From assembly GCA_015062685.1 (NCBI GenBank), contig SUUE01000002.1, forward strand, positions 1 to 64,000: a DNA stretch of 64,000 bases, read 5' to 3'. Below, piece by piece: positions 26,142 through 29,823 of the stretch. The position numbers were made by a program, and so were the translations under genes. Each line of letters opens with the position of its first letter. The first letter of the stretch is position 1. The notes under the pieces are model-generated. The model searched no databases. It was not told the origin of the DNA and saw nothing but the letters and a program-made list of their open reading frames with translations. This DNA is from Coriobacteriaceae bacterium (GTDB taxonomy: Bacteria > Actinomycetota > Coriobacteriia > Coriobacteriales > Eggerthellaceae).

Positions 26142-26513
26142 TTATTTCGGGCGCTTTGCGCCGTAGCGGCTGCGGGCCTGCATGCGGCCGTCGACAGCAG
26201 CGCAGTCGAGGGCGGCGCGGATGACCTTGTAGCGAACACCGGGGAGGTCCTTAACACGACCGCCGCGGATAAGCACCATGGAGTGCTCCTGCAGGTTGTG
26301 GCCGATGCCCGGGATGTAGGCCGTAACCTCCATGCCGTTCACCAGGCGCACGCGGCAAACCTTACGAAGAGCCGAGTTCGGCTTCTTCGGCGTGGTGGTG
26401 TACACGCGGGTGCACACGCCACGCTTCTGCGGGTTGCCCTTCAGAGCAGGCGTCTTGGACTTGTCGACCTGCTTCTTGCGGCCCTTGCGGACCAGCTGGT
26501 TAATTGTAGGCAT
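26142..26513 (-). CDS. rpsL: 30S ribosomal protein S12
   Basis: [13 protein letters not shown]...[18 protein letters not shown]. Confidence 0.98.
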
Positions 26514-26966: not shown

Positions 26967-27121
26967 TTCATGGCGCGATATGCCGTTAATGTACGAGCTA
27001 GAAGGCCTTTCTGGCACGATATGACGTACATGTACGCGATATCGTGCCATCAGGCCGTACATTAAGGCACTTTCGCGCCACAAACCGCAGCTTTTCTTGC
27101 ACGCTGGCACGATTTACGGCT
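26967..27121. repeat. hairpin-forming direct repeat, copy 1 (flanks nuclease gene)
   Basis: Near-identical to 28232-28386 (offset 1265); contains nested inverted repeats tggcgcga/tcgcgcca, ttaatgtac/gtacattaa, tggcacgatat/atatcgtgcca. Confidence 0.88.
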
Positions 27122-27131
27122 CCTGCGCGCC

Positions 27132-28085
27132 TCATATGGGCAGATGCAGTTCCGACCGTAGATATTCGAACTTCTCCTGCCAGTGCTTCGGAAAGCGAAC
27201 CCGCAGGCCGAGATACCGGGCAATCTGCAGGCCCGCCTTCTTCGTAGCCTCGGCGTTGTAGAGAACCGTCTTGTCGATCGGGAACACGTGCCAGCCGAGG
27301 GCTTCGAGGGCGTTGCGGCGACGCTTGTCCTTGCACTGATCCAAGTGGTACTCGAGCCCATCGTATTCCATCCCCTTCTTGAGGTCTGGATTGACGTAGT
27401 CGATGCAGAATTCGCTCTGCTCGCATAGGTGGGCGTTCCTCCCGGCCATCACGTCGTAGTTGAGATGAGTGAACGGCAAGCCCATGCCGCCCATCCAGAG
27501 CGGGGTTCCGAATTGAAGCGCCATCTTGCTCTCTGCTGGGGATCCGGAATTGGCTATCACCCAGCGAAGCGCTTTGCGGGCTTTCTTCACGCCCCTCATC
27601 TCCGAGACCTTGTCGAGGTACTTCGAGATCTTTTGCGGGGTGGTGAGCAGCTCTCTCCTATCGTCGATCTTGCCCGTGTCGAGGTTCATGTAGTACCTAC
27701 CGCATAAGTTGAGGCCTATTTCGGCCAAACGGATTTCCGAGACCTGGTTCGCCATTCTCGCGAAGAGCAGTTCGGGCGTGATCAGATATAGGCTCTCGCG
27801 CAGCTTGTTGAACGAGCCAGCGGGCAAGTTCGAAGTGCAGCTTCGAGCTGTGATGGCGAGTGAATGCCGCCTTGTCGATGGGTCGTTCACGAGTACTGAA
27901 ACAGGCGTCCCGCCATAAAGCGGATGGGCGGCATTGAACTGCCCCACACCTTCGCCGCCGCATGAGCATGAAGCGAAGGGGTTGCCCCGCGTCGGCTTCA
28001 CCCCAAATTGACTCAGCGATCCAACGTGCTCATAGAAGAAGAGCGCCGATTCGTCCGCGACGATGATATTTGAGCCATTTCCCAT
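27132..28085 (-). CDS. AbiEi-like/DUF559 (Vsr-fold) nuclease-like protein
   Basis: C-terminal MEYDGLEYHLDQCKDKRRRNALEALGWHVFPIDKT resembles Vsr/DUF559 endonuclease motif; SPAESKMALQF...GGMGLPFTHLNYDV linker. Confidence 0.65.
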   Translation of the reverse strand: MGNGSNIIVADESALFFYEHVGSLSQFGVKPTRGNPFASCSCGGEGVGQFNAAHPLYGGTPVSVLVNDPSTRRHSLAITARSCTSNLPAGSFNKLRESLYLITPELLFARMANQVSEIRLAEIGLNLCGRYYMNLDTGKIDDRRELLTTPQKISKYLDKVSEMRGVKKARKALRWVIANSGSPAESKMALQFGTPLWMGGMGLPFTHLNYDVMAGRNAHLCEQSEFCIDYVNPDLKKGMEYDGLEYHLDQCKDKRRRNALEALGWHVFPIDKTVLYNAEATKKAGLQIARYLGLRVRFPKHWQEKFEYLRSELHLPI

Positions 28086-28231
28086 GGTTCATTTATACGC
28101 GATTACTGCTGACAGTTCCACACATGAGCAGGGGCTTCATTCCATCGGAACCCTGACACGTTTTCCAATCGCGCTTGCCCTGCTCCGCGCAAAAGCAAGC
28201 GCGCCATGTGCTTGCGTAGAGATCTTGCCGC

Positions 28232-28386
28232 TTCATGGCATGATATTGCGTAAATGTACGAGCTAGAAGGCCTTTCTGGCACGATATGACGTACATGTAC
28301 GCGATATTGTGCCATCAGGCCGTACATTAAGGCACTTTCGCGCCACAAACCGCAGCTTTTCTTGCACGCTGGCATAATTTGCGGCT
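28232..28386. repeat. hairpin-forming direct repeat, copy 2
   Basis: Second copy of 26967-27121, same orientation; left arm partially decayed. Confidence 0.88.
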
Positions 28387-28452: not shown

Positions 28453-29823
28453 CTACGCCTCGAGCAAGCGGGCCGCTACCTGCTTCTTGCGGGAAAGGAC
28501 GCCCGGCATCCAGGTGCCGCCGACGCCGGTGCATTCGATGTCGAAGGCGCGGTTGACGATGCGGCGGTTGCCCTCGCAGAGGAACTGGGAGCCCTCGGCG
28601 ATGATGTCGGTGACCATGAGCAGAACGCACTCGTAGCCATGCGTCTCGATGAGGCCGCGCATGTACTCACGCATCTCCTGCTCACGGCTCATGACTGCCT
28701 CGAGGTTCGTGGTCTCGTGCTGGGCAATGAGCACCGTGCCGTCCCCGTAAGCGAACTCCTTAGAATCCGCGCTGACGAGCTTGTCGACGGGCATGTCGTC
28801 TTCCCCGCCGCGGAACGAGAACACTTCGAGGCCGAACTCGACGGGATCGTAGCCCACGATGCCCGCGAGGTAATCGACGATGCGCTGGTCCGTATGCGTG
28901 GCCGTGGGCGACTTGAGCACGACGGTGTCCGTCATGACTGCCGAGAGGAGCACGGCGGCGATGGGCTTCGGAATATCGATGCCCAGTCGCTGAGCCTCGA
29001 TCGTCACGATCGTGGCCGTTGAGCCCACGGGCATGTTCATGAACCTGATGGGGTTGACCGTCGTCACGTCCGCGATGCGATGGTGGTCGATGATCTCAAC
29101 AACTTCCGCCTGCTCGATGCCCGGAGCCGCCTGGCGAATCTCGTTATGGTCCACGAGCACGACCTTGCGCTTGGGGTGCATGGCGATGTCCGAACGCGTG
29201 ACGATTCCGATGGGCATGTTCCCCTCGTCGAGCACGACCGCCTCGCGGAACGGCTGGGCCATGAGGTCGGCCACGGCCTCATCGAGCTTGTCGTCCTTGT
29301 CCATGGTCAAGATACCCTGCTCCATGATGGCGTCGACGCTCTGGTCGAGCGATGCGATGAGGTCGGACGCCACCGACATCTGGCTCGCGCCCTCGTTCTC
29401 CAGGACGTCCGTCGCGGAAATGTAGCGGTTTGCGATCATGCGCGTCGACACGAGCCCGCGGTATGTCCCGTCCTCGTTCGTGACGACCACTGCCTGGATG
29501 TTGTGCTTGCGCAGCAACCTCCCTGCATCGATTATCTTCGCATCCGCGGGGACGCTGATCGGGTTCTCAGTCATGACGTCCGACACGCGCGCGAACACGT
29601 TGTTGATGAACACGGGGGGCTCGATGCCCCATTTCTCGAGCACGCCAGCGGTTTCGGGCGGGAGCGGGCCCAAACGGGCCGGCATGTACACCTCAGGCTT
29701 CTCGCCCGTGCGCTCTGCATCGCGCTTGGCAACCTCGTTCCTGAGCCAGGCGTACCCGATGGCCGAGCTGATGGCATCGTTATCGGGATTCCTATGGCCT
29801 ACGACGATAATCGGCTTAGACAT
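28453..29823 (-). CDS. manganese-dependent (family II) inorganic pyrophosphatase with CBS domains
   Basis: VVGHRNPDNDAISSAIGYAWL, LVDHNE, IIDHHRI; CBS pair inserted. Confidence 0.92.
   Translation of the reverse strand: MSKPIIVVGHRNPDNDAISSAIGYAWLRNEVAKRDAERTGEKPEVYMPARLGPLPPETAGVLEKWGIEPPVFINNVFARVSDVMTENPISVPADAKIIDAGRLLRKHNIQAVVVTNEDGTYRGLVSTRMIANRYISATDVLENEGASQMSVASDLIASLDQSVDAIMEQGILTMDKDDKLDEAVADLMAQPFREAVVLDEGNMPIGIVTRSDIAMHPKRKVVLVDHNEIRQAAPGIEQAEVVEIIDHHRIADVTTVNPIRFMNMPVGSTATIVTIEAQRLGIDIPKPIAAVLLSAVMTDTVVLKSPTATHTDQRIVDYLAGIVGYDPVEFGLEVFSFRGGEDDMPVDKLVSADSKEFAYGDGTVLIAQHETTNLEAVMSREQEMREYMRGLIETHGYECVLLMVTDIIAEGSQFLCEGNRRIVNRAFDIECTGVGGTWMPGVLSRKKQVAARLLEA

Follow-up and report, generated by a model that had tools for sequence, protein, structure and literature searches.

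RAYT enzymes are HUH Y1 proteins, and their substrates are single-stranded REPs carrying a GTAG motif (PMC8266576). The homing endonuclease I-Bth0305I binds DNA as a dimer, and its target spans nearly 60 bp (PMC3943268). The locus described here resembles the REP/RAYT systems in that an enzyme gene is flanked by cognate palindromic repeats and gene-less copies of these repeats lie in intergenic DNA, but it differs in having a predicted Vsr-fold enzyme, arrays of 25–30 bp sites, no covariation between the arms of the repeats and up to about 12 paralogues per genome. With the EDxHD homing endonucleases it shares a predicted catalytic domain, for which dimeric, long-target I-Bth0305I was the closest solved structure by both profile and fold. 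Unlike these, the gene is free-standing between arrays, with no intron or intein seen, and it does not split the target-like DNA, which instead lies on either side of it and at scattered places. Vsr and the Vsr-like repair nucleases of the DUF559 family appear to have the same fold (match to 1vsr), whereas the proteins considered here are about 320 aa long, have an extra N-terminal domain, are multi-copy and are linked to arrays. As with BIME, ERIC and MITE sequences, short palindromic repeats occur in many intergenic copies; here, however, they are tied to a nuclease family, and the order and spacing of their sites are conserved while the spacers are not. No description of such a nuclease-and-repeat system was found in the open-access literature searched, and the two papers matched there for DUF559 together with palindromic repeats were, judged by title and abstract, not relevant. 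The partnership looks like an undescribed one, its novelty lying in an enzyme unrelated to the RAYTs, in repeats built as arrays of sites and in the array type that is private to each paralogue.

The window, that is the whole stretch of 64,000 nucleotides analysed, belongs to a 2.5 Mb genome in 53 contigs (G000), and its nearest named records were MAGs labelled Eggerthellaceae or Coriobacteriaceae, several of them of ruminant gut origin. As the preliminary description had reported, two near-identical direct repeats lie at an offset of 1265 (26967–27121 and 28232–28386; 155 nt each, 94% identity), they contain nested inverted repeats (26971–26995/27056–27080, 80% complementary, and a near-palindrome at 27012–27049), and the only gene-size open reading frame between them (27132–28085, minus strand) is nuclease-like. 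A 38-bp core pattern occurred twice in the window and in none of 100 shuffles. The neighbours of the nuclease gene, named by sequence inspection, are rpsL (26142–26513, minus strand) and a manganese-pyrophosphatase-like gene (28453–29823, minus strand). The features of the locus are as follows.

26967–27121, plus strand: left array, with a four-site core at 26971–27080 and a decayed fifth half-site near 27105
26971–26995, plus strand: 25-bp site A(+), TGGCGCGATATGCCGTTAATGTACG, from the site scan
27012–27049, unstranded: 38-bp near-palindrome made up of two overlapping sites, A(+) and A(-), from repeat comparison, shuffles and site scan
27056–27080, minus strand: 25-bp site A(-), from the site scan
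27132–28085, minus strand: nuclease-like protein, 317 aa, with a predicted C-terminal Vsr-like/DUF559-like domain
28232–28386, plus strand: right array, with a four-site core at 28236–28345
28236–28260, plus strand: 25-bp site A(+), several bases unlike the left copy, from the site scan
28277–28314, unstranded: overlapping A(+)/A(-) near-palindrome, from repeat comparison, shuffles and site scan
28321–28345, minus strand: 25-bp site A(-), from the site scan

The C-terminus of the window protein gave sub-threshold matches to DUF559 (E=0.0027) and REase_MTES_1575 (E=0.0035), and the best plausible match in a profile search was the catalytic domain of I-Bth0305I (E=0.0019). The same domain was found by fold comparison with the structure model of the protein (pLDDT 87; TMt 0.61–0.69, prob 1.0, remote at a Foldseek E of 0.035), followed by a Neisseria endonuclease-like protein and Vsr. 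The catalytic domain is therefore predicted to be Vsr-like (EDxHD-type) and closest to I-Bth0305I, at remote similarity. Among 20 diverged homologues, S180, S182, P183, E185, D229, E240, D253 and R256 were invariant and H247 nearly so; these residues include the acidic residues and the histidine expected of an EDxHD enzyme and suggest a live active site, the roles of individual residues being putative. The N-terminal half of the tested homologues matched no Pfam family at E<=10. A PADLOC search with the window protein gave no match, and PADLOC-type defence matches among the 20 homologues were weak only, to two models.

The window-type repeat is made up of ∼25-bp sites (A = TGGCRYGATATNGCCTTAATGTACG) that are arrayed in a set order, with alternating orientation and fixed spacing. 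The fuller copies run A(-), A(+), A(+) overlapping A(-), A(-), A(+), their successive starts being offset by 49, 41, 13, 31 and 49, or are the mirror image of this. The repeat was present at at least 11 places in the genome, with at least nine arrays away from the nuclease gene, and the other arrays were longer, with up to six sites compared with the four-site core at the window. Allowing up to three mismatches, 43 sites were found in the genome, all within 11 arrays, and a reversed control pattern gave 0. The solo arrays adjoin unrelated genes in intergenic DNA. When all paralogue arrays were joined into one query, a further 20 or so dispersed copies, belonging to six array types, were obtained in the window genome, where 7 of 11 array types were dispersed. 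In G017, a single-contig genome from another genus, arrays of three of the nine tested nucleases occurred at 29 further places. These dispersed-copy counts are lower bounds. A tblastn search did not find the nuclease in 34 loci with dispersed arrays. Each array type had a single nuclease, and efficient homing of the gene was accordingly not seen. Two homologues looked split or truncated (G017 C1:365705–366606, at L218, and L026 1471–1971); their array types are dispersed, with 12 and 2 further copies, respectively.

The preliminary description had likened the locus to REP/RAYT or homing systems. This held for its logic, as the repeats flank the gene and are also dispersed without it, the pairing recurs at many homologues and the catalytic domain resembles that of a homing endonuclease. 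The enzyme itself is of another type than RAYT: the window protein matched DUF559/MTES_1575 only and not a Y1 HUH transposase, and because of this we did not file the system under REP/RAYT despite the similar logic. The same description had also suggested a 1265-bp unit able to excise by recombination, which found no support, since no other window-type array carries the gene and neither a circle nor a scar was seen.

Ten further nuclease homologues were present in the window genome, most with their own arrays of different sequence, several of which are dispersed. Homologues were found in 14 of the 15 Coriobacteriia genomes tested, at about 12 paralogues per genome at most, and most had their own sites. 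A flanking inverted or direct repeat (score >=18) accompanied 58 of 73 homologues and 10 of 55 control genes (p=2.7e-12), and sequence was shared between the left and right flanks of 21/73 homologues and 1/55 control genes. A matched flank control covered 50 loci in 14 further genomes, other genera contributing 46 of the loci. Spaced inverted pairs occurred in 44 of 100 immediate flanks and, at these same loci, in 1 of 100 flanks farther out (p about 7e-15), and in none of 244 window tiles used as a control. Same-genus loci, many of them on short contigs, were weaker by this measure (2/12). The arms of the spaced inverted pairs were about 20–50 nt long, mostly 25–35, and their start offsets were mostly 95–145. 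A Collinsella aerofaciens homologue with 24% identity had a downstream inverted pair with 42-nt arms that were 79% complementary. On plasmids, the nuclease gave one match, in a 900-kb Collinsella record labelled plasmid, and no second copy of the array of this record was found in the same plasmid collection. A search of phages for the nuclease gave none. The nucleases are thus paired with arrays, each paralogue has private site sequences, and solo copies are dispersed.

The simplest reading of this pairing is that the nuclease acts on its own arrays, by binding and cutting that we infer from sequence. We see an even chance that the locus belongs to a nuclease-plus-array system that is common among Coriobacteriia and in which the nuclease would recognise its own arrays and break repair would spread and homogenise them. 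Alternatively, the arrays could be operators. The protein, perhaps toxin-like, would then bind DNA as an autoregulator, repressing its own gene and, by way of the solo arrays, a small regulon. The conserved sites, fixed spacing and variable spacers do resemble regulator binding sites, and the arrays are intergenic. However, inverted pairs were as common downstream of the nuclease gene (34) as upstream (30), for which reason a simple operator model was rejected, and such a regulator would have no need of the conserved nuclease residues. We consider the operator role unlikely, and favour spread by cutting and repair because the arrays lie equally on both sides and solo arrays are found near unrelated genes.

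Several other repeats were observed in the window and the genome. A DUF4143/AAA_14 ATPase gene (50794–52110, plus strand) lies between 115-bp direct repeats (50599–50713 and 52123–52237, 89%) with GTGCGTGCACGTGAC-like palindromes, and is another repeat-flanked gene, of a family different from the nuclease. A 300-nt direct repeat (43799–44098/49051–49350, 87%) is partly within an open reading frame at 49016–49837, and 92-nt repeats (38000–38091/46084–46175, 75%) with a palindrome like AGCCCCTCG...CGAGGGGCT are perhaps terminators. GTAG-type REP-like palindromes (CCCGTAGGGGCGCTCCCCGAGCGCCC) were seen beside arrays at L033 and L036, among other loci in the genome, and Y1 transposase genes are located at C12:47673 and C22:181060.

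The presence of these two Y1 genes and of the GTAG-type sequences would be in keeping with an independent MITE or REP-like family moved by another enzyme, with the nuclease genes either carried along or serving as safe landing places. An association with Y1 transposases was rejected, as neither Y1 gene had a window-type site within 1.5 kb. A shared mover would moreover not predict arrays that are specific to each paralogue and in some loci alike on both sides, and we regard an independent repeat family as improbable.

All window-type copies contain inverted repeats, and the arrays might therefore work in the form of a folded RNA, such as an RNA antitoxin, or of single-stranded DNA, such as a hairpin transposition substrate. 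Between window-type copies the sites were 78–84% identical, while a 16-nt spacer was only 42% identical with its length kept. The match of the arms within a copy was no better than that of arms permuted across copies (outer arms 0.796 vs 0.811, inner arms 0.813 vs 0.807), and in a second array family the within-copy and between-copy matches gave p=0.12, so that no arm covariation was found in either. An Rfam search of the region gave no match. The absence of arm covariation and the near-random spacers favour protein-bound double-stranded sites over folded DNA or RNA. The repeats would accordingly not be mainly hairpins, double-stranded sites bound by protein fitting better, and hairpin formation as a functional feature, as initially proposed for the locus, was not borne out. 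A role as folded RNA or single-stranded DNA is, in our judgement, very improbable.

The commonest 7-mer in the loops between the arms was CCAGGTC, which was present in 16 of 64 loops and in 13 of 500 control stretches, and was most frequent in the window genome (10/12 loops). It was kept in the dispersed G017 arrays of one type, and the window-type arrays are without it. The loops of many array types, from more than one genus, carried CCAGGTC/GACCTGG as a conserved core (e.g. L024, L027, L215 and L216). An unbiased k-mer analysis over 500-bp flanks gave no clear common motif. The CCAGG core in many array loops resembles the Dcm/Vsr target.

At the window site, the gene was found in four species and was absent from at least three others; it is thus not fixed there, and the outcome that the preliminary description had named as refuting its proposal did not arise. 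An orthologue with 76% identity occupies the same place in G014, and the two arrays that flank it are more alike mutually than they are to the window arrays. The two window arrays beside the gene are likewise closer to each other than to their G014 counterparts, spacers included, so that the flanking pair shows concerted similarity. Such homogenised pairs could come from ordinary RecA gene conversion. In G004 and G008 (60%) the gene is at the window site with diverged, inverted flanking arrays, and G002, G011 and G013 have neither gene nor array there. The rpsL–pyrophosphatase gap of G012 (L284) holds a solo four-site array of another type, with the nuclease absent. Three dispersed arrays of the window genome were absent from the matching intergenic gaps in relatives, with junctions that could not be aligned. 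Precise empty-site junctions and target duplications were sought in relatives and none aligned, the exact empty site of the window included, as the intergenic DNA is too diverged. In contig C33, a 310-bp unit containing an array occurs twice with 97% identity at a distance of 9.9 kb, which shows a recent copy event within the contig; on inspection, neither a target duplication nor a terminal repeat was obvious in this copy. Passive assembly, with ordinary repeats gathering around horizontally acquired genes, would agree with the patchy distribution of the nuclease genes within the genus, but it was already unlikely given the matched flank control and is scarcely credible with a strong enrichment only in the immediate flanks, left–right shared sequence and a nuclease at the window site in four species.

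Under the cut-and-repair reading, the nuclease, Vsr-like (EDxHD-type) and equipped with an N-terminal domain of its own, would recognise the spaced inverted 25–30 bp sites that flank its gene, with different sites for different paralogues. It probably binds the inverted pair as a dimer and nicks or cuts within the array or next to it. With another array copy as the template, repair would then spread the array, homogenise the two arrays that flank the gene and at times carry the gene along, and the solo arrays would be non-autonomous or gene-less copies. Mobility in this sense, with arrays spreading by cutting and repair, is what we infer. More tentatively, and with the greater weight of our doubt against it, we propose a new class of mobile element in which a Vsr-fold nuclease would cut DNA and, through break repair, spread the double-stranded site arrays that belong to it across the genome. 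A single genome would contain many paralogues, each with a private array family, and the shared CCAGGTC core would be a possible point of cutting or exchange.

Since the paralogues differ from one another in protein as well as in sites, they offer a natural series in which to study the reading of a long DNA site by an extended N-terminal domain, and the occurrence of homologues in nearly all of the Coriobacteriia genomes tested and in C. aerofaciens makes the system testable in culturable strains. If the reading is true, the gut actinobacteria of the class Coriobacteriia would host a second, unrelated enzyme partner for dispersed bacterial palindromes, and a homing-type nuclease linked to scattered repeats rather than to introns.
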